DNA of 64,000 nt from the NCBI GenBank assembly GCA_003024785.1, contig PUQB01000633.1, positions 1 through 64,000 of the forward strand, in the 5' to 3' direction. This stretch comes from Selaginella tamariscina. Taxonomy: Eukaryota > Streptophyta > Lycopodiopsida > Selaginellales > Selaginellaceae. Positions 2,774-64,000 of the stretch are shown here, piece by piece. A program made the translations under genes and the position numbers. Below the pieces are notes generated by a model. The model had not been told where the DNA came from and searched no databases. It worked only from the letters and a program-made list of their open reading frames with translations. Each line of letters opens with the position of its first letter. Positions within the stretch are counted from its first letter, which is position 1.

Positions 2774-2814
2774 ACTTTTATTGCGCCTCGGCGAAAAGGA
2801 TCAGGAGGCTTCGT

Positions 2815-2897
2815 GTTATTCTAGTATATTCGCAGATATTCTAGGTATATTCTAGCATATTCTAGAATATTCTCAAGAATATTCTAGAATATATAAG
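2815..2897. repeat. AGAATATTCT-type terminal array, transposase end of copy A
   Basis: Several copies of TATTCTAG and AGAATATTCT lie just inside the GC-rich end. The unit is a palindrome and fits the plant heat-shock-element pattern nGAAnnTTCn. GCCGAC motifs follow at about 2909-2938. Equivalent arrays occur at the other ends of copies A and B. Confidence 0.6.
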
Positions 2898-3035
2898 CTT
2901 TTTTAATATGCCGACTGGCTTAATATTTGCCGACCAACAAATAAATTATTTAAATTTTTAGAAATTTTTTTGAATATACTTTATAAAAAAGTTCAATAAG
3001 TTACTATTCAAACAAATCATTTTGATGTAAACCAT

Positions 3036-6000: not shown

Positions 6001-6718
6001 CCTTGGAATCCTGCTCTCTTCCTGTTTCCTGGATCGTGGCTTGACATGCACTAGCAATGGCTCCTCTCCACAATGCTTACATTTCATGCCTATTACTTTG
6101 CCTGTCTCAGTTGTCTTTGCCTTCTCCACAGCACCCTTGAAGTGACATTCATTTGCTTTCTTCTCAAAAGCCAAGTAGGGGCAGGTAGGATTGATGCATT
6201 TGAGATGTCCGACACATGAACTTCAACTGACTCACGCCGGAACATGCCAGTGTGTTGTGCTCGAGTGTGTCCAATGGTAGCAGCCATCCTTGCAATTCAT
6301 CTCTAAGTACTTCTCTATGCTTTCTTTCTTTGGAGGAAGTTCATAAATGACATTTTCATTGTATATTTGCGGTAGTTCAGAGACTCGTTTAACTTCAGAC
6401 GAACCAATGAGATCCTTCCCTATCTTACATTTGGAAGACACACCAGCATGGATTCCTCACGCTCCTTTGTCCGCAACCTGAACAATGGTCCTTTAGCCGG
6501 GCACAATGTGTAAAAGACAAACTGGTTTGATGCAATGCCTTCTGGTAACAACTCCACATCTTCTCCAGAACTCGCAGAAACTGACATCGAACCACATGTA
6601 TATTGAACCAACAAGGAATGTTGAAAGCAGAGTGAAGATCATATTCAAACACAAAAGCATTTCCATCTTCATCGACTGGGAAATCTTTGTTAATGCCTTC
6701 ATAGGTAACTCTGGCCAT
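3036..6718 (-). pseudogene. MULE/FAR1-like transposase relic (copy A)
   Basis: Collinear with the intact copy B transposase. In minus-strand order, the N-terminus (MARVTYEG, 6718 down) and the Cys/His zinc-finger region (about 6440-6060) come first, then the segment around the first catalytic Asp (VVLDHTHRIPDW, near 4800). Next are MSDE (near 4560), a long helical region (4450-3800), a DUF-like Cys segment (3746-3471) and the SWIM finger (CSCSTFQ...LCIHMYF, about 3230-3170). Frameshifts break it into at least seven pieces. About 110 bases after MSDE are lost, removing the C-x-x-H block next to the second catalytic Asp. Part of the zinc-finger region is replaced by an insertion at 5.27-6.05 kb. 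It cannot encode an active transposase. Confidence 0.82.
5272..6050. repeat. Tandem-repeat insertion inside the copy A transposase
   Basis: Transposase homology stops at about 6045 and resumes at about 5270. Between lie three simple arrays: ATACAGGATTCCGG-like units (5430-5590), TTTTGCATGCATGCAA units (5620-5670) and a TCCTGTCC-rich array (5765-6010). A stretch from 5412 (TGTCACGACC, the same terminal bases as the gypsy LTRs at 56310 and 61056) to 5741 (ATCAACA) has LTR-like length and TG...CA ends, but no target duplication is seen, so a solo LTR is only possible. Confidence 0.5.
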
Positions 6719-7189
6719 AACAACGCAAGGAGAAAGCTCAGTGGTTTAGGAAAGCAAAGCAAAAGATTAAACACACTCTTGTTCGCCAAAAAAAATTATA
6801 ATCGTTGATAATAAATGTGAATACACTTTTGTATATAATTAATTCTACGTTACCCAGTTCACAGTGTTCTTAATGTTGTCTTCTCTAGTATCACCAATTT
6901 AATTTAATTACTACCTTTTATGATTTGAAATATCTTCACCTTTATCAATTATTCACATATTTTAATATTAACCCCAAATATTAATGTCACATTTATTTCG
7001 TAGGGTTCATTGTTTTCATTGCGGCTAGAGTTTTTTTGGTAGATAGAGTTTACTGTTTTCATTGCGGCTAGGGTTTTTTCTATCTCAGATCTGATATCTG
7101 AAATCTCCTCCAAGGGACTTGAGAGTAGCGGCGCCATCCATTTCGAGTCGATTCGTGCAGCGCCCAAGTAAATCAATTGAGATTTTTGT

Positions 7190-7975
7190 GCCGATTTAAA
7201 TTGTCGGCACCATCCTGCTCAGTCGGCGGCCACAAGATATGTGTAATTTCTTTATTTTATGATTTACGGCTCAAATAATTTATTTTTCAAAGTTAAAAGG
7301 GTCTTAGAATTTGTGCCGTGTGAGAGAGACGGCACTATCCTGGTTCAATCGGTAGCCATAAGGTATTTTCAATTTGTTTATTTTTTGCTTTGCGGCTCAA
7401 GTATCCGTATCACAATATTTTATTTTTTCAGAGTTAATGGGTCTTCCCATTTGTGTCGGAATCCCAGAGATAAAGGGTCTTCCCATTTGTGCCGACTGAG
7501 AGTGACGACACCTTCTTGCTTAGTCGGCAGCCACAAGGTATTTTCAATTTGTTTATTTTTTGCTTTGCAGCTCAAGTATCCATATCACAATGTTTTTTTT
7601 TTTTTCAGAGTTAATGAGTCTTCCCATTTGTGTCGGAAGCCCAGAGATAAAGGGTCTTCCCATTTGTGCCAACTGAGAGTGACGGCACCATCCTGATTCA
7701 GTTGGCAACCACAAGGTATTTTCAATTTGTTTATTTTTTGCTTTGCAGCTCAAGTATCCATTTCACAGATTTTTTTTTTCAAAGTTAATGGGTCTTCCCA
7801 TTTGTGCCGTCTGAGAGGGACGGCACCATCCTAGCTCAGTCGGCATACTTCTTACATTATCTCTTCAGTGCTGTTTGAGAGGGTCGGCACCAACCTATCT
7901 CAGTCGGCAAGATTTGCTCTTTTACTTTTCTGTGCCGATTGAGAAGGTCAGCACCATCTAGCTTGAGTCGGCAGC
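7190..7975. repeat. Tandem leader units with inverted GTCGGC motifs
   Basis: This array lies between the divergent genes of copy A. The unit is about 180 bp, clearest at 7360-7800. Each unit contains an inverted pair (TGCCGACTGAGAG ... CTCAGTCGGCA) and then a GTATTTTC...TTTTTTCAG segment shaped like a small intron. The layout suggests repeated 5' leader exons upstream of the ParB-methyltransferase gene. Copy B has a different, tighter palindromic array at the same place. Confidence 0.65.
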
Positions 7976-8060
7976 CACAAGGTTAGTCATCTTTGATTTT
8001 TATTTTTTATTTTGTCTCCTAATCAATTGACTTGTGTGTTTGCTTTCCAGAGTTTACAAA

Positions 8061-11000
8061 ATGGTGAGAGCTTCAAAACGTCTACTAGAGACTGCGCCTG
8101 ATGAAGAGCCACGGGAAGAGAAGAGGATATCGAAGCACAAGCAAGGCAAGAGAGGAGAACCATTTAATGTAGCAAAGGAGGATTCTCCAATGACTCAATC
8201 TAAAGTAGTACCAATTGAGCAGAGCAGCCTCCATCAACCATCACAAATTTCTTGGAGAGCTCGTCACAGTTGCCTCCTTCATCCGCTGAGGTTACAGTCC
8301 TGAACAAGCAAGTGCAGATGACAGAGGCAGTTGAAGCTAGCAAGGACGACTTGGAGGAGGCAGTCAGCAAAAAGAGAGGCCGCGGGAAAGCTGATCCAAA
8401 AGGCAAGAAGGTGAAGAGCGATAAGGAGCCGAAGGAGTTATACTTCCTGATGTGCCCATCTGTAAAATGCATTCGGACGAGGTGGTTTGACGAGTGAACC
8501 CAGAGGACTTGGACAAGCTGGTGTCATTGTTGAAGAAGGCTGGTTATCTACGCAACACGGCCTTGTTCATTCTGTCCATCGGAGATCCACTCACTGCTGA
8601 GGAGCTATCGGAGCTGTTGAAGGACACGGTTCAGTACGAGCAGCATCAATTTTTGAGCAAGCTCTTACTCAGCCGGAGTACAAATAGTGGGCTTCGAGGC
8701 TCTCAAACCGGAAGTTTAGCTGCTAGGACGGGAACCATAGGCTACAGGCTTTGCAAAAGCTCTATCGGGAGGATGCAGAGGACAACCAGTGATGTGCTAT
8801 TCGCGATCGAGTTTCATCTCCACGGAGAACCTCGACAATCTTCAACTGGTTTCGATGTTCCAATGATAAACATGTGAGTATTTTCTTTTCTTTTCGTTAA
8901 GGGTCTAGACTTATAGTTTCATTGAACAGATCTTCAGCACATCTATGGAAATAATGCTACCACATATTCTCCTCGCTGTAAAGGTGGTCTGCACTAGTAC
9001 CGAAGGAACTCAGAAAATCCTCGAGTCACTCACGAGGTTGATGTCTTGAGGTGCGGAAGTGGAAGGAGAGTCAATAGGAAAGACGGCTTGGCATCCTCTT
9101 CCAAACCTGATCTGCGCAAAGATCCTTTTCAAGGTAACCTCCAATTTGATTTATAGGAAAGAAGTTTTAACTTATTCTATGTGCAAACGAGATCGACGAT
9201 GATCTCAACAAAGCAGTCACCAGTGCTAAAGGCAATCCACAGCTTGAGCTGAACCTGAAGCAGCTAGTGTACAAGAAGCATGACAAGCGTATGCACAAGT
9301 TCCTCTCATCATAGACCCAGAGTTGGGGGAGGAGTGGTTCCAGAAGGTGATGAACATCTCTCATAAGCATGTCGTTATGGGCATTGAGAAGCTATACGCG
9401 ATGTCAAAGGCAAAGATTTCAAACATGCTGCGACTCCGATACTTGAACAAGCTCACCGTCTCGAATCCAAGGCAGAACAACAGACACTTGGGCTACCAGG
9501 CATGCAGGACAAAGAGTGGATCAAGTGGTTCACCTTGGACTTATATTGGAAGGCTGTGCGCGAGGAAGCCATTCAGATCCTTAAGGGGTTGCGAGAGGAT
9601 GGTGAAGAAGTTGGAACAGATGTCGACTTCATGAGCTGGTTTGACGAGATGCAAACTCGGAGCAAGTGCCTGGTCTTTCAGCCCTTCCATGACTGCATAC
9701 GGTTCACTTATTCGATGGAGCCAAATGAGTTTTGGAGCGTGAGGAGTCTGCATGTCGGATGATATGGAGGTAAGCTTTCATTCCAACATTGCTATTGACT
9801 AACTTTGTGTTACAGGTTCATACTGGCGAAGAAAATGGCACCGTCTCAGATGATGAAGCTGTGGACAGATCATACAACGAGCCTCACATGTGGTCGAAGA
9901 GCAGAGGAGCTCTAACACCGTTCGAACGGGAGCATGTTCCATTCTGGCTCGACTGTCCATCGCAACAGCCACCAGCTTGGGAGAGCTCACTATTCGACGT
10001 GCATGGCAATGATCTTCCAGCGATTGTTTGGGAGCCGGACAAAGTAGAGGCTATCAAGAAGAGCAAGATGAAGAAGACGGTGCGGAAGACAACTACACCT
10101 GCAAAGGGATCGGGAGCGGGACCAAGCTCTTCTACAGCACCTCCGTTGGCAATCGACTTTACAATCAATGAGGTGTAGCCACTTGTACTAGTTTGGACAT
10201 CAAGGATGACCTGATGACCTTCATCCCGACACTGGCTGCATCCCGTGGATCCTACGACCTGGCTGTGTGCGATATGGAGGAGATGAGTAGGTCTTTCTTC
10301 GAGTCGGGTGCTTCCCAGACAGAGGTGTACACCAAGCTCCGACAACAGGTTGACAACTACATACGGCTGAGTCACAAACGGTGTTCTAGGAAGTGGTAGG
10401 TGAATACAGCTTCAACCTCATCATCCTCGACTTGCCCAATGAGCTTGTATATGGAGGTGCTAGCATCAACAAGGACATTGTGTAGCTAGATCCGGTGAAG
10501 TTTGAGGAGGCCTTGCAGTTCAGTGGAATGCACTTGGCAGCGAGTGGTTTCATGGTCGTCTTTGCGAGTTCTCCTTCTGTTTCGACAATGATTCAGGCGG
10601 CGGTAATCAACTTGGAGGTTGCAGGGACTTACAGCGTCTACTGTGCATGAGGTTGGGGATACCGTGACAAAATTAAGGTAAGCTAGCTATTCAAGTTCAA
10701 GTTTAACTTGGTCTATGTTTTAGCCTTTATAATATATTCTTCTAGGATAGTTCAAAATCGGTGATGAGTGCATAGAATTGTCGACAAAGGCATCTAGACC
10801 GTCGGATTTATGCGTATCCTAACCTTTGAATTTCAACTTTCAACGGTAAAGATGTCATCTTCTTCGTTTCTTTCACCACGTGCGTCAGAGACAAGTGATG
10901 AATGGATGTAACATCAGACACATCAATTTAATGAAGTGGGATGTCTCAGGTTCATCAGCACCATCATCACATTGCCGAGCTCTTTCCAAATCCTCCATGG

Positions 11001-11497
11001 TTCCTGAGAATGTTCCACTCTTGGACAAAGATCTGGAGCTTACAGGATAACTTGTTGGTTTCTTGGTGCTGCAAAGTCTGAGAAGAAGTCGAAGAGGCCA
11101 AACCTCTGGCGTTGACGAACACGATCGTCGTCGATACCATGACCGTTTTTAGGAGGCTTGGTAAGGAAGTACTTTACTTTGTTTATCTAATGGAAGTTTG
11201 TGTAGGATGATGATTCAACCGAAGTATTCGACTTATGCAGCTTTTGATCGAGCGTCTAGTAGACCTGGCGACCTAGTCTGGGATATTAGTTTCGGAACCG
11301 GATCATCATTGTTAGCTGCCGTCAAGCTCGGAAGGAATATTATAAGAACCGAGAAGTGTTTCGAACTCTCTAGGTTGGCAACAAACAAGCTCGCAGAGAA
11401 CATTAGACCAAAAGAAATACTACTCAAAACCTCCTGTCCAAGCCTAGCTAGTGGTTCGAGAACTACAGCTTTACTTAAGATGAAGAAGAAACTTTAG
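8061..11497 (+). pseudogene. ParB-like/DNA-methyltransferase-like gene relic (copy A)
   Basis: Homologous along its length to the copy B gene at 29148-32450. It starts at ATG 8061 after a TTTCCAG acceptor. The lysine-rich N-terminus (8061-8480) leads to the ParB-like region. There DGNHRL survives near 8735-8755, but the Trp before it is a TAG stop and a nearby codon is another TAG. The middle domains follow (9190-9760 and 9830-10180). The methyltransferase-like part has LIILDLPN near 10420-10440 where DPPY is expected, and motif I (VWDISFGTGSS) at 11275-11310, placing motif IV before motif I as in beta-type N6/N4 enzymes. Further stops and frameshifts occur, for example TAG at 10484 and TGA near 10648. 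Not functional as read. Confidence 0.75.
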
Positions 11498-11589
11498 CTA
11501 ATGTGTATTGAGTAATAAATTAAGCTAATATAAAAAAGAATAAGGTAGAAATACAACAGTTTTAATAGAATTTTTTTTTCCGATTGAGG

Positions 11590-11660
11590 ATCAGAAAGAA
11601 TATTCTAAAATATTCTAGAATATTCTAGATATTCGAGCCCAGGCCTCTGGGCCCAAGCCT
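11590..11660. repeat. AGAATATTCT-type terminal array, methyltransferase end of copy A
   Basis: AGAATATTCTAAAATATTCT-like units are followed by a GC-rich tip (CCCAGGCCTCTGGGCCCAAG). The same order, palindromic AT units inside and a GC-rich tip outside, is found at 28945-29035 in copy B. Confidence 0.6.
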
Positions 11661-11686
11661 CCAAAATGACGACACTCACTTTTATT

Positions 11687-23584: not shown

Positions 23585-26500
23585 ATGTCACAATATTGCC
23601 CAAGGATCTTGTGTGTACGTATGGTGAACACCATTTACAAGCATGTTGAGGTTCTGGGAATGGAATTTGAGGAGGGTTCTCCTGTATTGTGGAATTTGGA
23701 TGAAGTCAAGGCTGACACAGAATATGCAGAGTCACAAACAAATAGTAGCACGAGTTTACCAGATGATGGCTTGCCTGCTGTGATGGATGAGGTGATTCTC
23801 TTTCTTCGTGAGATTGAAGTCGGAAGAGGCATCATCACAGCTATAAATCCAATGGAAGCAGTGTCAGAAGAGAAACTAGGGTCCGACTTCGTGGGTGTAG
23901 TTGTGACAGAGGTTTCACCTAATGGCACATTGTATCCTGGATCCTCGTGAGGTGGCGAACATGAATTAAGACGGCAAGATGGTTCAACATATTCTGGGTT
24001 GGATTTCAATAATAACAACCCGGAAGAACAACTCATATTTGAAGAGGTTCCTTGCATTGGTCCTATTGTAAGAAAAAGGCGATTCATGGGTTGTAGATCT
24101 TCCCCTGCAAGTTTCAGCAAGAGGGTAAAGATGGATCCTACATCTTCCGAAAGTGTTACGAGCATTTCCACGATTGACTATTGCAAGAAGAAGTGTTGTC
24201 AGATGGCAGACCGGAATGAAATTACCCAATGTAGACATGTCTTTCATATGCTCACCCAAAAGCAAAGCATGAGTTTGTATATGCTGCACTAACTGGGTGT
24301 ATTGATGGAATGGGCCTCGGACACAGGTTATCAGAGTACATCCATGGTATTTAATAAGGTGGCCATCTGCTTCAAAGCTTGGTACAGTATATACGGGATC
24401 CCAAAGACCACGTTCTACCGTCGGAGGGATGAGTGGCTAGATGGAGCGCGAACCTCAGTTCATGGGAACACTGGCTTGGTCAAAACCCGCTCTCACATCA
24501 TGGCAGCCATAGAGATACTCAAGGCTTTGTGGAAGCAAATGCAGACAGGATGCCTCACAAATGCCGAACCACAAATGCAGGGGTCAGGGAAATCTCAAGG
24601 TTTTACCTTCAATCTACACACAATTGAAACTGTGTGAACATGTGAACAAGTGCCTCAGTTTGATGGGCTCCAAGCAATCTGCACTGGTACCTTCAACAAC
24701 ATATGGAATACTCATTTTAAGGATGTGGAGATTGCAAAACACTCTAGCTTTTTCTAAGTGTGACACTTGTACATCATTGAAGGCTGCAGAGGCTTGTGCA
24801 AAACCTTGGTGGAGATCACTACCATTCAAAGGAAGATGGAGGCCCACATGATTGCACAACAAACTTGTCGGTCTCAGTACTATGCACACCGCATGCTTTC
24901 TGTGTCACGCCCATCAGAGTATCTGTGCTTGATCCATAACAAGATGATCATTCAAAGACCAGCATTCCAAAGCTCTTTGCAACACCAAATGCCTTGGAAA
25001 TGTCATGAAACTTCCGATTTCTTTAACAGGTGTGCTAACACATGGACACGGTTGTGAGTCATATGGACACTTTTCACTTCCACATTGGTCTAGCGACTCC
25101 AATTTCACTATTGGGTCGTTAGCCATGTGTTTCAGAAACCTTGAAGCCCACTCACAGACAAATCCTATCAGTGATCTCAAAGTGAAGAAACAACACCTTC
25201 AACCTTTACATAATGCTCTCATGAACACGTCTGCACTTGAGGCTACTTGGGAATATGAGAGGCATTGTCAGCAACCTGCACAAAAAACAGATGGCCTGTG
25301 AGAGTTCAGGTTCAGTGGAGGGATCTAGCTCAATAGTGTACATGTGTCCTCAACATCAAATAAGCTTCCTCGTCATTTGCTTTTACAGATGGATAATTGT
25401 GCAGGCGAGAACAAAAATAGGTAAATCATTTTACTTAAGGGTTTCTCAAGCTCATACTTACTTTTATTTTCTAGATATGTGCTAGCATACTTGTCAATGC
25501 TTGTTGCCAAAGGTGTTTTGAAACAATCACGCTCAGTTTCCTTATGGTTGGTCACACTCATGAAGATATTGATGCGTTCTTCAGCAAGGTCTCCAACTCT
25601 ACAAAAAGGACAAGTGCACTTACCTTACGCATGATGAATCTTTTTGAAAATTGCATCTCCAAAAAAAGTTGTGCTTTGCTTGTGACTGAGGTGCCAGACT
25701 TCAAAAAATTTCTCAAGGAGTATATAAAAGAAGGGAGTGATTCTTTAGTTGGTCACCTTGTGCCGCTACAATTCTTTTTCTCCATACGAGATGGTATACC
25801 TATTATGCAGTACAAGTTACGGCCATCAGAGCAGGAGTGGTTACCGAAAGAGGGCTTAATGCTCTTCAAAAGTGGAGAGGATGGAAAGCCACTTCTCCCA
25901 GAAGGACAACCAGACCCTATTCCATTAAGTGCCCAGCTCAAGGAACAAGAGGTTATTATTGATGGCATCAAAAAAATATGTGGCATGGGTTCAAAAAATC
26001 GATGCCAAAGAATTCTGATAAGGCAACTGGTTACTCAGAACTATATACATGTGGTCAACTATTGGGAGACTGTTGTTCGAGAGTTGGAAGGGCCTACTGT
26101 CACAAGTACAGAATTGCAACACCCTTTCTGGCCTAAAACAAGGTGGCGAGAGGAGATTGAAATGACATCACTGAGCACAGACGACATAGAAGCCAGTAGT
26201 GATGTGGAAGTGCAACCCCACACTTTGTTGGACAAAGGAACCAAAAACCTAAAGCATACTTTGATTGCTGCAAGGATCTTCAAAAACTAATGATGGTTCT
26301 CATTACTCCAGACATCATATAATCAGCCTATTTGGATGGGGTCAAATTATCGAACACCTGAAGTAATCACAAAAAATAGTATTGTTAAGGTTGCATGGTT
26401 CAAACCACAAAAAAGGCGACACGAGAAGGAGAGCGAAAGATATAATGGATGCCTAGAGAAAACATGGTCTCCCAATCAAAAAGACCCAGCATGTTTTATA

Positions 26501-28924: not shown

Positions 28925-28944
28925 TTGTACGAGTCCCGACAAAA

Positions 28945-29035
28945 AGAGGGCTTCTGGCTTCCGGGCTTGGACCCGGAATATTCTAAAGAATCTACCAGAA
29001 TATTCTTAGAATATTCCTAAATATTCTTAGAATTT
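28945..29035. repeat. Left end of copy B: GC-rich tip and AGAATATTCT array
   Basis: GGGCTTCTGGCTTCCGGGC leads into GGAATATTCTAAAGAATC and several AGAATATTCCTA-like units. The order and spacing match the methyltransferase end of copy A (11590-11660). Confidence 0.6.
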
Positions 29036-29147
29036 AGGATTTTGGCTCAGTCGGCAATTAACAACAAAAAATATTTAAATCATAGCCATGTTTATACTGT
29101 ATTATTAAAGTTTTATTTCAACACCAAAGAGTACAATTCAACACTTG

Positions 29148-32100
29148 TCACTTCTTCTTACGATTGAGCAATGCTGCAATTCGTGAACCACCAGTCCTAC
29201 TTGACGTCGCTATTGCTTGGGTTGGGATTTCCTCTGGCTGGATGTTCTCTTTAATCCTGTTCATAGCAATTCTCCCGAGCTCAGGGTTCTTCTCAGTCCC
29301 AACAATGTTTCTCCCCAGCTCGATAGCTGCAAGCATTGAGGACCCCGTACCACTGCCTATATCCCAGATAAGATCACCTGGCCGGGTGAGTCGTTCTATC
29401 ACGAGCTGCATCAATCGAGTGCTCTTCGGTTGGTAGTCCATCCTGCATGTGAAGATAATGGTAAATACTTAAATTGTTGAAATGAAATGCCTACCATGGT
29501 TCTTGGAACCGCTCAGGATTATCAACAAGAATTGTTGATGACAAACGCAGCGGATTATCGCGCAATCCTCTAGATGCATCTTGGAAGACAAGAAGGAGCA
29601 GGATGCTCTCCTGTTAAAACATCAAAAATCATTAATGAACTTCATGAATAAAGAAAAAAGTACCTTCATCTTGTTGCGGTAGCCCCAACCACGCCCTCTG
29701 TAGATGTAGTACGTTGCAGCAAGTTGAAGGTCCACCACACTTGCAGCTCGGACAACTTGATCCCAGGTGTTTGCTGCAGCAAACACAACCAACCAACCAT
29801 TTGCAGCCATATGCATACCTGCAAACTGGAGTGCTTCATCGAACTTCACTGGATCAAGGTAGAGGTATGGCGTATCACTCGTTGTATTTCCTGGCAAGGT
29901 CCCATTTGGAAGGTCGAAGATCACCAAGTTGAAACCATATTCTCCCGCAATATGCTGGTAGCGAGTCTGGCTGTCAGCTGTATGGTACCTGGCCACCTGT
30001 GTCTGAACTTTTCTATAAGGAACCAGTCTAGCGGCAGGAACCTCCTCTTCCTTCTCATCCGTGAGCACGGCCTGTTGCATCTCCTCGATGTCATCAATCG
30101 CCAAGAAATTATCACCTCGAGTTGTAGCAAGTGAAGGGACGAATGTGACCAAGTCATCCTTGATGTCCATGGTTCCCTGCGATGGTAGCACTTCAGATAA
30201 ATTGAATAAGGCAGCTGGGTCGCGAGTAGTGGAGGTGCCAGCTACTGTATCTGAGTTCTTCTTTGACTGCTGCACAGGCTGACGCCGCTTTGCCTTGGCC
30301 TTTGTCTTCTTAATGAAGTCGACCTCTGCCGGATCCCATGAGATGCATGGGAGATCTTTTGAGTGTTCATTGTAGAGATCCTTCTCCCATGTTGGTGGTT
30401 GCCCAGGTGGATAATCAAGCCAGAACGGTACGTTTACACGTTCGAACTCTGTCAGGCCAGATCTTGTCTTCGACCACATGTGTGGTGCTTCCATGTAATC
30501 TGACCAGAATACCATAGTCTGTGTGTGAGGCACCTTTCTCGCTGCGACATACCTGTAATGAACATATAGTAGTGTCAGAATGTAACATTGTCAAGAAGAT
30601 CATCCTTACCTCCAAATCATCCTTCTTGCTGTCTCTTCGTGTTCGAGGAACTCTTTCAGCTCTATGGAGTAAGTGAACTTCACACACTCATGGAATGGCT
30701 GGAACATCACGTTCTTGCATTTTACCCGCACTTCATCGTACCAAGTCGTGAAATCTGTAACCGGCCTGGTCCACTCGCCATCCTCGATGAGTCCCGTGAG
30801 AATCTGGACTGCCTCCTCTCTGATCGCTCGCCAATACAAATCGATAATAAACCACCTTATCCACTCCTTATCCTGAACACCCGGCAATCCAAGTGTCTCT
30901 TGCTCTCTCTTCATCGAGACGTACCAGTTTATTGAAGTACATGATTCTCGTCTCGTTTGGAATTCTCGCCCTTGAAAGCGCGTACAGCTTTTCCAACCCC
31001 ATCCATCTGCATTGTTTCCATGTGATTTGGGTCACCTTGTCGAACCACTCTTCACCCAATGCAGGATCGATGATGGCTAAGATCTTCATCATGCGCTTGT
31101 CATGCTTAATGTAGACCTGTTGTTGCTCCTGGTATTTGTTGCCTTTGGATGCCCTTGCAGCCTTCTCAAGATCATCCTCAATCTCACTCTGTAATTCACA
31201 GACGTAATCAACTAAGTAATATAAGTGTGAGACGTGGTACCTCAAAAAAAATCTTTGCACAGATCAAATTCGGAAGTGGATGCCAAGCTTGTTGTCCAGT
31301 TGCGCTTTCCTTCCACTTTCTTATGTCATCTCGTTCCTTGTCACTGAGCCTGGCCAAGATCTTCGCTGTGCCCTCCTCACTGGTGCAACATGTCTTCACA
31401 GATAGCAGAAGATGTGGCAGTGTGGTTTGCACTGCCGTTGCGGAGGAACTGCATATTTGAAAATCTCGAAGTTAGTTAATCCTATGATCTAGAGGTCACT
31501 ATGTTTACCTATTAATTTGCTGAAACATTGTCACAAGCTGAAGATTATCCATGACCCCAGCAGCCTGGCATTGCCCACTGATTCTTATCTTCCGTGTCTT
31601 CTATGTACAGCTTCTGAAGCACCTTTAGCCTGTGATTACCATCCCAACAGATGAACTTCTTCATCGAAAGCATTGGTGCCCATTGCCGGAACATGTCAGA
31701 CTGAAGCTCCTCCTCAAAAGCCAAATGCTGAGCATACATCGCTTCATCGCTTCTCAATGCTGCCAGATCTGCATCTGTCATGGGGTCCCCAACTTGAAGG
31801 ATGAACTGAGTGGTGTTGCGCAAATAACCAACTGCCTTCTTGAAACTCCTAGTCAAAGATTCCAGATCCGCTGGATTGACTCTCCGCACCTGTTCATTTC
31901 CCAGAATTCGGCAAATAGGGACATCCGGTGCCTCTCCATATTCTCGGATTGTGATCTTCGCGAGAAGACGCACTGCACTCTCCGAATGCATGCTGGCTGC
32001 AATGTTGTAAACTTCCTCATTATCTGGCACTTCTGCTTTACCCTTCTTCTTCTTCTTAGCAGCCTCTGAATCTCCAGCAGCTTTGCGTCGTCTCTTCTTG

Positions 32101-32450
32101 TTCTTGGGTTCATCCTCTTCGTCACTCGACAAAGTCACTGCGCATGAGGCTTGTGTGCCTTCTGTCTGCTCCTGTGTCTCCTGTGGTAAGACATCATCCT
32201 CAACTTCTTCAACAAAGTCTGATTGTTCTTGTTGGGGTTGAACTACATCCTCTTGCTCTCCTGACCAGTCCTGCTGGCTTGCCTGTTCAACTGGAGCATC
32301 ACTTGAAGGTCCTTGTTCCTGAACCACAGCCAGCTTCCTACTTCCTCTCCCACGACCCCGACGCCCTCTCTGAATTGCAGCTCTAGCTTCTGCTTCTCTC
32401 TCAGTAGGCTCCTTCATCTTCTTTTCTTGTAAACGTTGTGAAGAGCGCAT
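29148..32450 (-). CDS. ParB-like domain / permuted DNA-methyltransferase-like protein (copy B)
   Basis: A six-exon model with consensus splice sites: 32450-31509, 31448-31241, 31188-30610, 30552-29664, 29610-29495 and 29442-29148, about 1,000 residues. The N-terminus has an AT-hook-like RGRGRG stretch (about residues 30-38) and a lysine-rich nuclear-type signal (117-138). A ParB/sulfiredoxin-like region follows (about 178-285) with CWDGNHRL at 268-275. After a novel middle region comes a methyltransferase-like fold: NLVIFDLPNG near residue 790 at the motif IV position (DPPY expected), then LIWDIGSGTGSS near 935 as motif I with an acidic TEKN loop. Motif IV before motif I is the beta-type N6/N4 order. 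Two single-base frame changes (about 31520 and 30930) interrupt it. The altered motif IV makes methylation uncertain. It is divergent from the transposase. Confidence 0.72.
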
Positions 32451-32526
32451 CTACAAAAGCAATAAGGTTTAAAAAAAACTGTAATAAATGTTCAAAGATG
32501 TTTAAAAAAATAAAAAAACATACTAG

Positions 32527-32850
32527 CCCTCACAGTCGGCGTGCCGACTGAGAGAGCAGTTGCTGTAAGTCCCAGTCGGCATGCCGACTGGGCCTGGCAT
32601 CAAAGGGAGTCCCAGTCGGCATGCCGACTGGGACTGGCAACAAAGGGAGGCCCAGTCTGGGACTGGGAACGAAGCAAGGCCCAGTCAAAATGCTAGGTGG
32701 GACTAGAACAGTCAACCCTAGTCAAAATGCTGACTGGGGCTGGAACAGTCAACCCGGTCAAAATGTTGACTGGATCTGGAACAGTCCACCCCAGTCGGCC
32801 TGCCGACTGGGACGGACAACGAAGTCAGTCCGAGTCGGCAGGCCGACTCG
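32527..32850. repeat. AGTCGGCATGCCGACT palindrome array
   Basis: Directly upstream of the ParB-methyltransferase start. Clear palindromes lie near 32532 (AGTCGGCGTGCCGACT), 32574, 32613, 32793 and 32833. Decayed units in between carry GTCAAAATGCTGACTG. Unit spacing is about 40-45 bp, with GGGACTGGCAACAAAGGGAG-like spacers. The same GTCGGC core occurs at both ends of the element. Confidence 0.82.
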
Positions 32851-33341
32851 GATTTCTTGCAACTGTGAAGAGATGTAAAAAGATGAACAGATCATGAAGA
32901 GATCATGAGCAGATCATGAAGAAATCAGAAAATACTCACCCCCTCAATGGAAGCCTATTGTGATTAATCCCTGGAGCCACACTTGCTCCACGCTATGCCC
33001 CCAAATGAGCCCCTGCTCCACGAAAACCTAGCCGCCCTAGCTGCCCTAGCCCTAATTGCAAAACCCTAGCCGCCCTAAATCAATTAAAAACCAACCTAAT
33101 TTCTGTAAACATATTGCATGCATGATCGCCACTTGTACATAGTAAAACTTTTTAATTTACAAAAAACCTACCCAGACGCAGTAAATTAATTTCACTCTTC
33201 TACCCAGACGCACGCAATTAATATTATTTTTAATATTTGTCAATGAAATGATTGCCTCACGACTAACAAACACATTAACCATCGTGTGTAATATGTTCAT
33301 TGTCTTTGAATTTTAACTTTTGTTTGTTCCATTTTTGCTAC
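32851..33341. promoter_or_regulatory. Upstream region of the copy B transposase
   Basis: About 490 bp between the palindrome array and the transposase ATG, with no ORF. It includes tandem GATCATGA(A/G)(C/G)A units (32888-32930) and CCCTAGCCGCC repeats (33025-33080). A promoter is inferred from position only. Confidence 0.4.
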
Positions 33342-36300
33342 ATGGCAAGAATCAGCTACAATGGTGTTGACAAGGACTTCCCTGCAGATGAAGATGGTAT
33401 TGCATTTGTCTTTGAAACAGATCTCAGGTCTGCATTTGACATTCCACCTTGGCAATCTTTTAAAGTGCTGCATTTGATGTCTGTTGTTGGTGGAGATGCT
33501 GCGAATGTTGAGGTAGAACCAGAAGGGGCAAGAGCTAGCAGTTTTGTGTATTACACACTTCTTCCTTCCAAAGGACCACTATTCCGGTTGGAGACAACAG
33601 ATCGGGACAATTCTATGGTAACAATACTTCGCAATAGTCAGAGATGTAGGATTGGGAAGCAACTGGTGGTCTCGTCATCGATTCAGCAAGTTGCTGAGGT
33701 CCCAGAAGATTGCAACGGAAATGTGATTTACGAGTTGCCAGCACACGAAACAATGAAGGACAAGTACAAAGGGATGAATAGGAAGGATGGGTGTGATTAC
33801 TGGACTCAACGCTGCACAACACATTGGAATGTTCCAGCTCGTGTTAGTCGCAGTTCATGTATTGGCCACATGAAATGCGTAAAGGAAACATGTCCGTTCA
33901 TCAGCTTAAGTAAGAAAGCAAATGACTGCCAATTTAAGGGCACCATTGATAAAGTCCAGTTATCTTCAGATGGTAGAGTGCTTGGAATGAAGTGTGTGCA
34001 TTGCAACAATGAGCCCCTTCTAGTGCAGACATGCTCCGTTGTTGCATATTACATAATTCCAGATGATATCACATGCACGAGGCTTTTCATCCATCTTGGA
34101 GAACATCAACATCCACGTAGACCACCCGAATCCATGGTCTCTAAAGACAGAGCTAAGGAGACAATCAACAAAGCAGTCGCTGCAACCCCAAGAACTAATC
34201 AACGTGTCATAGAGTTTCAAGCAGCACGCAATATAATTTTGGAAAAACTGGTAACAGATTCTGGAGATGTATCATACGACAAGGTTCTGTCAGATCTACT
34301 ACCACTCACAAATCACCGCCGGTAAGCAAAAAAATTATTATTTCCTTTTGGAGATGCTTAACCTTTCCACTGTAGAACAAGAGAATGGATATCTCAGGCT
34401 AGAACAAGAGACACTCGTTTCAAAGAAGGTTACGAAGGACTTCTGCAGTTAAAGAAGAAGCTATCAATCCCATTCATACATGTTATCCACATACCCGGAA
34501 TGGACCTCAACGGAGCTGAAGAGCAGCCTTTAATCTTCAAAATGACGGTTGCCGGCCCAGGATCCGGAATAGACTACATTAGAAGGTGTCAATCTGGAGG
34601 TGATCTCGAACAGCAGTGGGTGGTGCTAGACCACACATATCGTATTGATGATTGGTGTACACTGGGAATACATCTCTATGATCCATTGTAAGTATTAACA
34701 TATCTATGTTTTAAAATACTTACTAATATAATGCACTTATGTTTGTGTAGTTTAAGGTCGATGGTGACACTTGCTTATGGTGACATGATCAGGGAGGATA
34801 GTGTGGCGGTGATCAAATTTTTGAACACTATGCTTCAAGTGTGCAGCAAGCAAGGACTTCATAATGTGAACTTTGCGGGGTTCATGTCAGATGAGTCAGG
34901 TGCAATTTGGTTAGCATTGCGTCAAGTTTTCAACAATGGGTCAAAGATGAAAGGAAGAGAAAGGAGTTGTTTGTTCCATTACATGCAGTCAGTGCGTCAA
35001 GTTACAAAGAAGTGGATACTTGAGGAACACAGGGAGGAGCACATGAACCTTGCACGCTCATGGCCTGCAGCACTAACCAACCAAGATAAGTTGGAACGAC
35101 GAGTAATGTTGGAGTCATTTTGGGAAGGCAGGTCCAGTAACGTTAGCGCTTTGCAAACATGGCTGTCATGGTGGGCAAGACATGAAGATCATATTTCCAT
35201 GACAGAGATAATTGACTTGACAGAAGATGGTGTTGCGAATGTGCCTACCACTAACAACTCCGAAGTTGTTCATGCAAGAGCACGAAGAGCAAGGCTGACG
35301 AAGCGTGTTCCTTTGTTGGAGGCAACAATGTTAGATTTAACAGATGCTGTTTTCCAAAGTGCAAAGGTCAAGGCATCATTTGAAGGGAGATATTCAGGCA
35401 CAGGTCCTTCCATGGAAACTCTTCTGAAACGTGCACAGCAGAAACTTTCAGCGGGAAAATCAGTGTCTCCAACAACTTTTGCAAATCTTGTTAGTGATGA
35501 AGAGCATCTTGCAAGTCCAGAGTTTGCCTCTACAACAAATGTTCGTGTTCGAACCGTTCGTCAACCGTCAACTGGGGACCATGGGATTGATGCGCTTCGT
35601 ACACATAGACATGACACACAATATGCAGAACAAGTCATCCCAAATGCACGCAGGAAAAAACTCAAGTTTCAAGATGTCAATGTCACTGAAAGAGAGACGT
35701 TGATGACTCAGTGGGCCATCAGACGCATTGGGGAGGCAAGTCAGGTGAAATGTCTAGGTCTCACTCAGGACGGTAACAGCAAGTGTGGCAGACCCATAGG
35801 ATATCCACATCGTGTACCGGCACCAGGATTTCACGGTAGACGGCAATATACAAATGCATTTGGGAACATTGAGTTCACTCATCAGATGTTATGGTTCTGC
35901 CCACGCGATTCTTGTTGCTTCAGACGACCATATGCAGGGATTCCTCCTGAGAGTATTCCAGAAGTTCCAGAGGTTTGGCCAGTTCAAAAAGGAACAAACT
36001 TGAATGCAAATGAGGTTGAAGCTCTTCTGAAAGCAGGATTCAAGTTGGAGGGATTTGAAGAAATGGTAGACGACAGTAGTAGCCGAATGGATCGAACACC
36101 ATCACCACCAAGAGGAGAGGGAGCACATAGAGTACCAACATACCATGGACGGAGTGTGCGAACACCAACAAGAATGTCCAAGGAACATGAGAAACATTAC
36201 AACCAGGCAAAGATTCTTCAAGGTCGGATCAACAACGTGGAGGTGGTTCAAAGAGGGAAGACTGAGGCCTTCATTGTCTCTGCAGGCATGCAATCTGCTA

Positions 36301-36539
36301 AGGTAACAATTTCTGCTGTTCCGTCATGCACTTGTGCAACTTTTCAGAAAGCCAAGAACTGGAGCCCCTGCCAACACATGTATTTTGTGTACACTCATGT
36401 TCTTGGATTAGACCCAACGATTACTTACTTCTTACAGAGGCGGACCCTTACTCCAGCAGAAGTGCATCGGTTATTGTTGGTTGCAAGCGCAATGTCGAAC
36501 CTACGACTTTTTAAGTTTAGTCGGTATAGTAAAGTCTAG
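33342..36539 (+). CDS. MULE/FAR1-like transposase with WRKY-GCM1-type and SWIM zinc fingers (copy B)
   Basis: A three-exon model: 33342-34321, 34376-34687 and 34751-36539, with introns of 54 and 63 bp that keep the frame. It gives 1,026 residues with no internal stop. The start is ATG 33342 (MARISYNG), as in copy A (MARVTYEG). Residues about 150-260 hold Cys pairs (C173, C179, C184, C218, C221) and an EHQHP motif, like the WRKY-GCM1 zinc-binding class found in MULE transposases. VVLDHTYRIDDW near 412 and FAGFMSDESGA near 479 fit the first two catalytic Asp positions, with C-L-F-H following. I could not fix the third acidic residue. A SWIM finger (CTCATFQ...PCQH) lies at about 957-973. It is expected to bind the element ends and cut in the nucleus. 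It is the only intact mobile-element gene in the window. Confidence 0.85.
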
Positions 36540-36670
36540 TCGGCAAATAATTAGCGTTTTTCACTTGTTGGTCGGCATTTTATAATGAAAGTTAAAGATA
36601 ATCTACTTGGCAGGAATATTCTAGAATATTCCCTTTTATTTGACAGAATATTCCTGATATTCGGGAATAT
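36519..36670. repeat. Right end of copy B: GTCGGC motifs and AGAATATTCT units
   Basis: TAGTCGGTATAG, TAGTCGGCAAATAA and TTGGTCGGCATTTTA lie just after the transposase stop. GGAATATTCTAGAATATTCC and AGAATATTCCTG follow. The counterpart in copy A is 2815-2938 on the opposite strand. Confidence 0.6.
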
Positions 36671-36924
36671 GCGAAACCCGTTGTACGAAGCCCGGTTTTT
36701 GCTAATCCTCAGTATTTGAGTATATAATTTTACTAGTTTATACACACATATATATATAACACCAGTGTGAAATATGTATTGATATATGCGTGTAGGATGA
36801 GTATACGTATATGTTCAGTTTTACACTAAATATTAGCACATATTACATTGAGTTACAAAATAAATAGACTTAAATTTAATACATCAATTTATAACACCAG
36901 TGTTTATACTGTACATACCTTGTA

Positions 36925-56638: not shown

Positions 56639-57650
56639 CTATTCCCTCTTCATGACGAGTATTGGATCAGGTTTTGCAGGATATCGATGATGGAATTCAG
56701 CAATAAGATCATGAGGATGAACAAGATGAGCAACAGTCCAATCGTCACTGGACCAGGTTTTGCAGATGAGAAAATGAAACACCGGAGGAAGATTGACCCA
56801 ATCATCTTACAGATGAGAAATGAAACACCGGAGATATTGTTCCAGAGTCTGAATCATGCGCTCCATTTGGCCATCTGTTTCAGGATGATGTGCAGTAGAC
56901 AGCTTCCCGATGAAAAATGAAACACCGAAGATATTGTTCTAGAGTCTGATGTGCAATAGACAGCTTCCTGATGAGAAATGAAACACCGGAGATATTGTTC
57001 TAGAGTCTGAATCATGCACTCTCGATGAAAAATGAAACACTAAAGATATTGTTCTAGAGTCTGATGTGCAATAGACAGCTTCCCGATGAGAAATGAAACA
57101 CCGGAGATATTGTTCTAGAGTCTGAATCATGCACTCTCGATGAAAAATGAAACACTGAAGATATTGTTCTAGAGTCTGATGTGCAATAGACAGCTTCCCA
57201 ATGAGAAATGAAACACCGGAGATATTGTTCTAGAGTCTGAATCATGCACTTTGTTTGACCATCTGTTTCAGGATGATGTGCAGTAGATAGCTTTCCGGTG
57301 ATACGTAGCCGATATAGAAATCTCGGCCAGAATGCCGAAATGAACTGGGGACCTCGATCAATGACAAGTTTATCAAAAAGACCATGAAGATGGAACACCT
57401 CCCGGTACACCAGATCTGCAGCATCAGGACCCGAACATGTCTTATTACAAGGAACAAAGTGCGCCATCTTAGATAACCGATCAACAATGACTAGGATAGC
57501 ATCAAACCCTCTAGAAGGCAGTAAATCAATGAGGAAATCTATGGTGATGGAGAACCATGGCTGCTGAGCAATAGGAAGAGGTTGTAGTAGTCCAATCGGT
57601 CAATGACAAGGAAGCTTTGTACTCTGGCACGTGTCACAGGATCGCACAAA
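56639..57650 (-). pseudogene. Gypsy integrase with internal tandem repeats
   Basis: The zinc-finger part KFVRSCDTCQSTKLPC (about 57650-57600) and the core [32 protein letters not shown] (57467-57250) are recognisable. The following segment is amplified as a 115-bp tandem repeat (AGAGTCTGATGTGCAATAG units at 56941, 57056 and 57171). Confidence 0.78.
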
Positions 57651-58815
57651 TTTTTCAGTACGGTTAGTCTTGGAGAAGCTTCGAAAGCACCACCTATTTA
57701 CCAAGTTAGAGAAGTGCTCTTTCAGTCAGCAGTCTGTCGAGTTCCTAGGGTACATCATTTTAGTTGAAGGTGTTCACATGAATCTTACAAAAGTCCGGAC
57801 TATATTGGAGTGGGAGAGACCATCAAATGTTCGTGACATTCGATGTTTCCTCGGGTTTGCGAACTTCTATCGACGTTTCGTTCGGGATTTCTCCAATATT
57901 GCATTACCATTGACGAAGTTGACTGGCAAGGATGTTCCATTTGTTTAGTCCTTTAAGGCTAAGGAGGCATTCGAGTTCCTAAAGAAGGCGTTCACCTCGG
58001 CACCTGTTCTTATTCATCCTGACCATGCGAAGCCATATTTTGTGGAAGCTGATGCCTCTGACTTCGCTATTGGTGGAGTGTTGTCCTAAGAAGGTCCAGA
58101 TCATCTTCTCCATCCCATTGCTTTTCATTCCCGCAAGTTCATTGCACCTAAGATCAACTACGATGTCTACAATAAGGAGCTGTTAGCAATCGTCGATGCC
58201 TTTGAGGAGTGGCATAGATTCCTTGAAGGTTCCCTACATGTGGTTAAGGTGTATTGTAATCACAAGAACCTCCAGTATTGGGCAACAACACAAGTTCTCA
58301 ATTAGCGTCAGGTGCGCTTTGTCTCGGTTTCGATACGTGATTATTCATTATCCCGGTCGTCTAAATGACAAAGCAAATGCTTTATCTCGTCGCAGTTACC
58401 TAGCTCCAGTACCATGTGAAATCTCATTTAATCAACAAGAACAAGTCATCTTGAGCTCCGACCAGTTGTTGGTGAACACGCTTTCTCGTTCTTTTACTCC
58501 ATTTGACACTTCGTTTTTAGATCTAATCCGAGAAAGTCTTCCTCAAGACGAGTTTGCTCGTGATGTCCTTGCACATGTTCAACGAGTTCAGCCATTGTCT
58601 TCAGGGTCACAACTACGAGATTATGCTGCTTTCTATCTTCATAATGGGTTGCTGTACCACCATATCCAAATCTATGTTCCGGACGGAGAACTGAGGTTAT
58701 GAGCTGTCTAACATTGCCATGACAACACAGCTGCGGGACATTTTGGCATTAGGAATACGATCGAGCTGGTACAACGTGTGTTCTAGTGGCCTCGGCTTCG
58801 CATGTATGACATGCC
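57651..58815 (+). pseudogene. Inverted block of gypsy RT C-terminus and RNase H
   Basis: On the plus strand, VRLVLEKLRKHHLFTKLEKC..FLGYI..FLGFANFYRRFV (57660-57900), [10 protein letters not shown] (58050) and GRLNDKANALSRRS (58352-58395) are followed by HDNTAAGHFGIR and WPRLRMY (58718-58808). The neighbouring minus-strand parts end and begin exactly where these would join, so this block was inverted in place inside pol. Confidence 0.8.
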
Positions 58816-60944
58816 ATTCGTGTTCTTCTCGGGTCTTGAAAAATATCAGTGGCACATGATGACAAACAAATCCAAGAAGTCCCGAAAATATCGTTAGCCA
58901 TGTGCTGGAAACAGCAGGTGCATTTGTCAGGCCAACGGCATTACTACGTATCAAATGTCCGTAGCGTGTACGGAATGTTTTCCACTCGTCCCCTTCTCGA
59001 ATTCGGATGAGATTGTACGCTCCTCTTAAATCGATCTTTGTGAAGTACCGGCACCAGAAAGACGTTAGCATGTCGGAGACGAGCGGGAGAGGATACTTGT
59101 TTGGAATGGTGACCTTATTCAGATCTCGGTAGTCCACCACGAGCCGGAGACTTCCATCCTTCTTGGAAACAAAGAATACTGGAGCACCAGCCGGTGATCG
59201 CGAATGACGGAATAAATCCGGTGACAAGATTCTCCTCAATGTATTTTCAATGTCTCCAACTCTGTTGGTGAGAGACCGTAAATGGGACCGGAGGACGGCT
59301 GCTTACCCTCAACGAGATCGATAGGACAGTCGTACTCACGGTGCGGTGGCAAGGCAAAGCTTTCTTTTTGTCGAAGACGTCTGCAAATCAGATACTGCTT
59401 TGGTAAGGCAGAGGAAGGAACAGAAACATCCTTAGCAGAGCAGGGATAGACTTTGATCGCGAAACACGGATGTGGGTCATGTCGGCTATCTTTCTTGAAC
59501 TGCTTCAAGGTGATATGAGACTTGAAGTGGAGGAGGAACTGGAACAGGATCGGAATCAAAAGTGTGGCTGGAGTTGAAACAGCTGGGAAACTGTTCATGA
59601 AACGTTCTCTCCAACCAGGATCCACCAACTCGATCCATGGCAAACCAAGGATAATCGTAGAGTCTGGAATAGAAACAACACTGAAGGAGATGTTGCACAC
59701 AGCACGCAAGCAACGACCTCAACGAACTCCGTGTCATTTATTACCTCCAGATTTGATATCTCGTCCATCAACGACCCGTACAGAACCAGGAGTCTTCAAA
59801 GGATGTAGACGGATCCCGTGCTTGACAGCAAAATTCTTGTCGATGAAATTTGCGTTCGCTCCGCTATCACCAAAGCTTTACCAAGAACTCCACCTCTGGC
59901 GTCTTCAGCTGCACCGAACATGGAACGGCTTGCACACCTTCGTGGATGGAATGGATCCAAGATGAGGAAGGGAAGATGTTATGAGTGAAGAGCCTTGAGG
60001 AACATGAGTTGTTCCACAGGCAATCTAGCCGGACGGCTCCTATTTGGGCTGGATCTTCTCGTTTCCCGGCAGCATAGCAAGGGCCACTTCACGAGCTTGT
60101 TTTGGACGTCGATGACAATTCTCCAACTTGTGGTACGGGTCCCCACAGTACAAACAAAGCTTGTACTGAATCCGCTTCTGGCGTTCGGTTGGCAAAAGCT
60201 TGCCTCAACGTGATCACCCTAATTCCATTGGGGATGGTTTCTATTGGAGGAAGATGATGGATCAGCAGATGAAGAAACAGGGACTGGAGAAATGGAAGAA
60301 GACGGCACCGAGAAGAAAGAAGGATGCCAATGTTCTTGTTTCCGCTCGATCAATCAATTGTCACAACGGATTGCCAACTCTATCATGCTGGTGAGGGTTT
60401 TCAAAACAGCAAAATTCAGCAACATGTCTTTGATCTCGTCCTACAACCCTGATCGGAAAACCTCCTTGAGAGCACGATCTCCCCAGGTGACATCACAAGC
60501 AAGGAGTTGAAACTTCGACGCATACTCTGCTATCGACATACCCCCTTGGTGAAGATGGCAGAGTTTGGTGATGGCAGCACTCTCACGATCCACGTCACTG
60601 AACATCGTGTGAACCGTTCCACAAACTCCTCAAAATTCCCAAGGATCGGATCATTATTCTTTAGCAAGGTTGAGAAGCACGAAAGAGCAAAACCGGAAAG
60701 CAGCGACCTGATCAATCGACCTTAATAGGTTCTGTGCTGTAGCGCCTTGGTTACATCATGATCCGCAGACGAACTTGATTAAGAAAATCTCAGAACTTTG
60801 ATCAGGTACCATCGAACTTTTCGGGCATGTTGATCTTCGGCTCTGGAGAATTCGCACGTTATTGGAGCTGATTATTCTCCAGGTATAGTTGTTCGATCTG
60901 TTGCTGGAGGCAGCAACTTGCTCATGAAGAGCATGCTCAGACAT
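58816..60944 (-). pseudogene. Gypsy gag-protease-RT N-terminal part
   Basis: From right to left: gag fragments (60944-60240), a zinc knuckle CLYCGDPYHKLENC (about 60165-60120), the post-protease segment IILGLPWIE (59660), and RT with FVSKKDGSLRLVVDYRDLNK and FTKIDLRGAYNLIRI (59170-58990). The end FFKTREEHEWHV (58860-58820) stops at the inversion breakpoint. Confidence 0.78.
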
Positions 60945-63581: not shown

Positions 63582-63676
63582 ATATGGACAAGTTGGCTAA
63601 TACATATGTGTGTTAATAGAAAGGTCTCGGGTTCAAGTCTTGTAAAAGGTAAAAATAATTTATGATCCTTATAACA
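63582..63676 (-). repeat. Gypsy LTR (right, 5'), second part
   Basis: AAAGGTCTCGGGTTCAAGTC ... GATCCTTATAACA matches the end of the left LTR at 56585-56638. The GGTTCAAGTC looks like a polymerase III B box but belongs to the LTR. Confidence 0.72.
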
Positions 63677-64000
63677 ATAAGCGTTACTTTTGTGGACGAA
63701 ATCACGCATGATTGCTGTCAAATTTCTTGCTAGAAAGCATTACTTTGTCACTTTTGTGGACGATTACTCACGCATGATTGCTGTCAAATTTCTTGCTAGA
63801 AAGCATTACTTTGTCACTTTTGTGGACGATTACTCACGCATGATTGCTATCAAATTTCTTGTTAGAAAGCATTACTTTGTCACTTTTGCTGTCAAATTTC
63901 TTGTTAGAAAGCATTACTTTGTCACTTTTGTGGACGATTACTCACGCATGATTGCTATCAAATTTCTTGCTAGAAAGCATTACTTTGTCACTTTTGTGGA
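63677..64000 (+). repeat. In-frame 66-bp tandem repeat of copia integrase
   Basis: Each unit encodes HYFVTFVDDYSRMIAVKFL plus ARK, the copia integrase core around its DDYSR motif. Units start at about 63682 (shortened), 63739, 63805, 63871 (lacking 24 bp), 63913 and 63979, and run off the window. All spacings are multiples of three, so the frame is kept. Confidence 0.85.

Follow-up and report, generated by a model that had tools for sequence, protein, structure and literature searches.

The stretch of the Selaginella tamariscina genome analyzed here (positions 1 to 64,000 of contig PUQB01000633.1; the window below is this whole stretch of 64,000 bp) contains a transposon at 28931-36710 with two divergently oriented genes, one copy of a family that we call family 1. 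Its ends, mapped across loci, read GAGTCCCGAC... and ...GCTAATCCTC. The gene on the plus strand (33342-36539) encodes the transposase in three exons (33342-34321, 34376-34687 and 34751-36539), and the spliced frame runs through 1,026 codons with no stop. The gene on the minus strand (29148-32450) has six exons (32450-31509, 31448-31241, 31188-30610, 30552-29664, 29610-29495 and 29442-29148), separated by GT/AG introns of 52-60 nt, and its product combines a putative ParB-like N-terminal part with a methyltransferase-like C-terminal part. No third gene is found among the open reading frames (ORFs) of at least 150 codons in the element, and thus no ParA-like partner is seen. The initial annotation of this DNA had announced an intact 1,026-residue transposase; the stop-free splice agrees with it, and the word "intact" fits the transposase only.

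The element is a mobile unit of these two genes. Its ends were mapped with a query extended beyond both of them, at family-1 loci other than the window copy (29 for the left end and 10 for the right end). At 15 of the 29 loci the left end coincides with 28931; the count rises to 19 if a shift of up to 2 bp is allowed, and to 24 at up to 12 bp. Of the remaining five, two stop 17-25 bp inside, and the other three are limited by the locus, interrupted by an insertion and truncated, respectively. The right ends lie at 36709-36711 in all ten loci. Nine family-1 copies could be tested for target duplications of 9 bp: five have exact ones, two have repeats that agree in eight of nine letters, and two have none. 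One of the last two is the window copy, whose missing duplication perhaps reflects recombination between copies. The end mapping and the duplications bear out the shared ends that had been claimed for the unit.

The whole assembly (300,702,823 bases in 1,391 contigs) was searched for further copies with two 30-mers, one from the transposase start and one from the loop of the second gene, at up to three mismatches. This gave 214 transposase-start sites and 210 second-gene sites, and no site for the reversed controls. Two pairs of loci (L027/L034 and L016/L025) each share an insertion site, which points to haplotype duplicates in the assembly, and the copy counts are therefore inflated. Pairing was assessed among the first 100 matches listed for each probe, all of them exact: a listed second-gene site accompanies 92 of the 100 transposase starts divergently, at a distance of 1,650-2,945 bp (1,714 bp in the window copy), and eight listed second-gene sites have no listed transposase partner. 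The initial annotation had argued that the pairing is a unit and not chance, and had named transposase copies lacking the second gene as the finding that would count against it; mostly such copies are not what the listed starts represent, and the pairing is upheld.

We call the element Mutator-like (MULE-like) because of its target duplications, which are 9 bp long in family 1, in the second element of the window and in locus L071 (both described below) and so lie within the 8-11 bp characteristic of MULEs. Near the transposase C-terminus there is a SWIM-like motif, CxCx(11)CxH, right in place and spacing, with an expectation value (E) of 0.027 and a score of 14.5 bits, below the cut-off of 19.6. 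The MULE DDE domain PF10551 gave no match to the whole transposase (E up to 1) or to its third exon (E up to 10), and comparison with the PF10551 elements of this genome by hhalign and blastp, with shallow profiles, found nothing significant. A search of 5.8 billion proteins returned no relative of the transposase at thresholds of E 0.001 to 0.01, its sensitivity being limited by a word filter. Of the earlier MULE/FAR1-like label, "MULE-like" is retained for the duplications; profile searches lend it no support. PF10551 does match strongly in another MULE family of the same genome (L001-L008), whose members are nearly uniform and have long open frames.

The exon model of the second gene was compared with an alignment of 30 rows (the window copy and 29 other loci), 23 of which start inside exon 1. 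Two small deletions break the gene of the window copy, and both are absent from all 29 other aligned copies. In three of the 30 rows the six exons can be read without interruption down to the stop codon in the part covered, about 878 codons, roughly the first 137 residues lying outside the checked part. Because the deletions are absent elsewhere and open copies exist, we consider the six-exon model right, as initially annotated, though the window copy is frameshifted. We rejected an alternative eight-exon model that keeps the window gene open, since extra bases stand at these places in all 29 other family-1 copies, and the three open copies and L071 of family 2 read both stretches as coding. 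The 972-residue translation of the eight-exon model served as the query in the Pfam scan and in the search of 5.8 billion proteins; it lacks the two short coding stretches, and the methyltransferase matches are unaffected. The latter search and another one with the main exon of the gene, with the same thresholds and filter as for the transposase, found no relative. Two loci at first taken for diverged copies were also rejected, being ordinary copies with frameshifts.

By sequence comparison, the C-terminal part of the second protein is a permuted amino-methyltransferase-like domain. Its C-terminal half matches PF01555 (E 3.8e-9; 37.3 bits against a cut-off of 26.7), methyltransferases of the PHROG collection match the protein with E down to 3.6e-12, and in tblastn searches plasmid-borne enzymes align across both halves, with E down to 7e-8. 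In the alignment with seven plasmid-borne or viral enzymes motif IV precedes the S-adenosylmethionine (SAM) motif. The SAM-binding motif region, DIGSGTGSS, with the PF01555 match, is located by profile and alignment in the last exon (29148-29442, minus strand). Of the permuted N6/N4 methyltransferase-like fold proposed initially, the methyltransferase-like domain and the permuted order are supported by the profile match and the alignment.

Motif IV itself, FDLPNGT (29898-29918, minus strand; placed by alignment to bacterial and viral relatives), reads DLPN in all 30 family-1 rows and in both family-2 sequences read, whereas the seven aligned relatives have DPPY, DLPY, DIPY or DPAY. Asparagine thus stands where an aromatic residue closes motif IV in beta-class amino-methyltransferases. 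Without it, base methylation should be severely impaired, and catalysis by the protein is therefore doubtful. The invariant DLPN bears directly on the idea of active self-methylation, in which the protein would deposit N6-methyladenine or N4-methylcytosine on its own element, marking it as self or blocking host silencing. The PF01555 match, the permuted order of the motifs and the tblastn matches over both halves all suit such an enzyme; given the altered motif IV, we regard self-methylation as rather improbable. A role of this kind has been suggested for the proteins of algal transposons (PMC12477816). The methylation role envisaged in the initial annotation is accordingly weakened, while the methyltransferase-like domain on which it was founded is present.

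The N-terminal part contains the loop CWDGNHRL, within a ParB-like region at 31563-32009 of the minus strand. This loop is identical in family 1 and family 2 and resembles the ParB/Srx loop; its glycine-histidine-arginine stretch, DGNHRL, was recognized by eye, and we take it to be that of ParB. The label "ParB-like" is given by this motif and by the published algal parallel discussed below. Phage sequences searched by tblastn with this part gave a single chance match (E 7).

A second, decayed element of the window (2783-11677), flanked by the 9-bp duplications ACTTTTATT at 2774-2782 and 11678-11686, represents another family (family 2). Both of its genes are homologous to those of family 1 and keep the divergent layout: a decayed transposase gene on the minus strand (3070-6718, extent approximate, assigned by homology to family 1) and a decayed ParB-like/methyltransferase-like gene on the plus strand (8061-11497, extent read by eye). 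The transposase gene is interrupted at 5412-6046 by a 635-bp insertion, TGTCACG...TTGACA with TGCAC flanks, that looks like a solo long terminal repeat. The main blocks of this element share about 80-94% DNA identity with locus L071. That locus is a further family-2 element, 8,275 bp long, which is bounded by an exact 9-bp duplication of its own and has the same layout as family 1. In L071 the transposase is in pieces, and the second gene is open in exon 1 and has one frame change in exon 3; this change, at about 6425-6450, lies near the sites of frame trouble in both window elements. A 67-residue family-2 fragment matches the genome at no fewer than 150 places, with identities of 85-99% (150 scored out of 988 candidates), three of these matches having an internal stop; the evidence for pairing in family 2 comes from two elements, 2783-11677 and L071. 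What the initial annotation took for a decayed copy of the first element does have the two genes in divergent layout, but belongs to a separate, abundant family.

Comparison of the two families indicates that the second gene is maintained. The second proteins are 57% identical over 860 codons, and the differences by codon position (289/218/537) correspond to a nonsynonymous proportion (pN) of 0.28 against a synonymous proportion (pS) of 0.84, the latter saturated, that is, pN/pS of about 0.33, in a codon comparison built on tblastn that favours similar stretches and so biases pN low. Among six segments compared, the one with the SAM motif is best conserved (73% identical between families). Against the decayed window element pN/pS is 0.36-0.44 for the second gene and 0.31-0.38 for the transposase, the transposases being 58.7% identical. 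Since pN is well below pS between families, the second gene appears to be under selection within the element, and by this codon evidence it is under strong purifying selection and no passenger. Gene capture is known from plant MULEs, and a captured gene with no function for the element would fit its defective state in most copies, 27 of the 30 rows not being open to the stop owing to indels, stops or missing ends, some of which are perhaps assembly errors. This explanation is largely refuted by the same gene standing in the same position, under strong selection, in two diverged families, and by its presence in 92 of the 100 listed family-1 copies; we consider it very improbable. Selection and pairing together support the earlier suggestion that the second protein serves the element.

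Both families share a short half-site, AGTCGGCA, found close to each end and, as tandem arrays, in the region that separates the two genes. The window holds 15 of these half-sites against 0.91 expected, none of 100 shuffles reaches 15, and all 15 are inside the two elements; this test is not independent, because AGTCGGCA was picked after a search for shared words, and the genome-wide count of palindromes is the better check. In family 1 two half-sites are joined into the 16-bp palindrome AGTCGGCATGCCGACT, arranged in units of about 40 bp. It has 1,142 sites genome-wide, and its reversed control has none. Of the 1,142 sites, the 50 listed belong to eight elements and are without exception located between the two gene starts, 3-10 per element (the last element possibly having more), at a spacing of 38-40 bp except for one gap of 75 bp. 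The array of the window copy (32530-32860; unit about 40 bp) keeps two perfect palindromes, starting at 32574 and 32614. With a GTGAGT donor ahead of it and TTTTGTAG directly next to the ATG, the array may be part of an intron in the 5' leader of the second gene.

The subterminal half-site of the left end (29049-29056, plus strand) is found in 27 of 30 loci, the window included, the other three (L015, L020 and L035) being without that stretch; that of the right end (36538-36545, plus strand) occurs once in each of the ten right ends. In family 2 the half-sites are paired in inverted orientation at a distance of 33 bp within a 137-bp unit, with one more half-site near each end; the central tandem array of the decayed window element (7296-7974), with units of 177 bp and 64 bp, contains them as well. 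No AGTCGGCA was found in eight stretches of 3.3 kb around the members of the other MULE family (L001-L008).

The position of these sites admits a serious rival, in which the transposase reads them: the half-sites would be subterminal repeats bound by the transposase and, in the promoter, autoregulatory operators, while the second protein would be a MuDRB-like accessory and not the reader. Some plant transposases bind subterminal repeats, and half-sites indeed stand near both ends and in the promoter. Long arrays of palindromes in the control region, however, are more than a transposase that binds the ends would require, and the layout of the array differs between families while the half-site stays constant; we hold this alternative to be the less likely one.

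Our preferred interpretation, to which we assign a probability of about 50%, is that of an autonomous two-gene DNA transposon whose second protein is a sequence-specific self-recognition factor for the element's own AGTCGGCA sites. We infer that the ParB-like N-terminal half is what binds these sites, both in the control-region array and near each end, as ParB does on sopC/parS or VANC on VANDAL repeats. Such binding would mark the element for expression, anti-silencing or end pairing. The C-terminal SAM-binding domain, which selection maintains, would probably act as a DNA/SAM-binding or regulatory module, or as a slow or altered enzyme, since the aromatic residue of motif IV is lost. A narrower version, parS-like self-recognition, would have a ParB-like clamp on the palindrome arrays and end sites, with a catalytically silenced, SAM-sensing methyltransferase domain, keep copies open or pair the ends. 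We put it forward tentatively, as possible; if true, this would be a eukaryotic selfish element with the logic of plasmid partition, independent of VANC.

Several observations weigh against a self-recognition factor encoded by an autonomous element. For eight of the 100 transposase starts listed, no partner is listed, although one of these starts lies past the last second-gene match listed and the others may have a mismatched partner. The frame of the second gene is broken twice in the window copy, in exons 1 and 3, most other rows are likewise not open, and the flanks of this copy carry no target duplication. The ParBc profile did not match up to E 10 in Pfam, PHROGs or NCBIfam, a profile search of the PDB with the ParB-like part returned one chance match only (E 0.95), and an AlphaFold model of the region, with three window rows as input, had a mean predicted local distance difference test (pLDDT) score of 43.9, too low for use. 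Of the ParB identity initially assigned, the invariant CWDGNHRL loop stands, and the fold is putative. Finally, either the transposase or a host factor could be what occupies the candidate sites instead.

Proteins of this kind are already known from algal transposons. The brown alga Ectocarpus has an element, Sola1-1_Ec32, with a ParB-like and methyltransferase accessory protein opposite the transposase, and similar proteins of red and green algal transposons are mentioned there after Iyer 2011 and Petroll 2025 (PMC12477816). As far as the passages on Sola1-1_Ec32 describe it, the two systems share a single protein of about 1,000-1,100 residues, with ParB-like and N4C/N6A methyltransferase-type parts, encoded on the strand opposite the transposase. 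They differ in that Sola1-1_Ec32 is a 21.5-kb Sola1 element of a brown alga, whereas the elements described here are 7.8-8.3 kb long, make 9-bp duplications, reside in a lycophyte, and have hundreds of copies, a candidate half-site array and DLPN in motif IV. Likened by published description, the algal accessory proteins and the spikemoss protein agree in layout and in the methyltransferase part, and in ParB by motif. The initial annotation knew of no described plant transposon with such a protein; this must be restricted in view of the algal cases, but no ParB-methyltransferase of a land-plant or MULE-like transposon was among the literature matches listed. The new part is the candidate target array; the algal passages on ParB-methyltransferases name no target sequence (PMC12477816).

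Among plant transposons, a close parallel is VANC of the Arabidopsis VANDAL elements, an anti-silencing protein whose short target motif sits in rapidly changing tandem repeats within introns and upstream regions (PMC5735166). Shared features, as far as those accounts go, are a second protein of a plant transposon and a short motif in noncoding tandem repeats, common to subfamilies (PMC5735166, PMC10398659). The motif differs, YAGTATTAY for VANC21 (PMC5735166) against AGTCGGCA here, and so do the domains: DUF1985 and DUF287 belong to VANC, and neither gave a Pfam match in the second protein up to E 1. Anti-silencing has been demonstrated for VANC and is proposed here; should the spikemoss elements indeed encode a system for anti-silencing or self-marking, it would have been invented independently of VANC, as the second of its kind. 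MuDR with mudrB resembles our elements in 9-bp duplications, a SWIM-like motif in the transposase and a second ORF, and differs in that PF10551 has no match here and mudrB, in the survey sections covering it, encodes a protein of unknown function (PMC6446971). The main text of this survey of MULE diversity mentions neither methyltransferase nor ParB (PMC6446971).

The array itself resembles sopC of the F plasmid, in which the tandem-repeat tool also used on the window found a 43-bp unit in 10.7 copies with a 16-bp palindrome. Both have a 16-bp palindrome in tandem units of about 40 bp (43 bp in sopC, mostly 38-40 bp here), adjoining a gene for a ParB-type protein in the F plasmid and a ParB-like gene, so assigned by motif, here. 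Unlike SopB/sopC, the spikemoss element has no visible ParA-like partner, and a chromosomal element needs no plasmid partition; single-sequence hhalign of the second protein with SopB gave a probability of 2%. With two families and hundreds of copies, the system offers a short candidate target, evidence of selection and natural variants of the array, and thereby opens the role of ParB-methyltransferase accessory proteins to direct binding and methylome tests.

Other features of the window include an ORF at 25544-26290 with DUF7869 (E 1.7e-13), perhaps a piece of another mobile element, and broken frames on both strands at 58196-59709 that by eye resemble fragments of gypsy-type retrotransposons. 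Minisatellite arrays are present at 56803-57251 (unit of about 115 bp) and at 63646-64000 (unit of about 66 bp).

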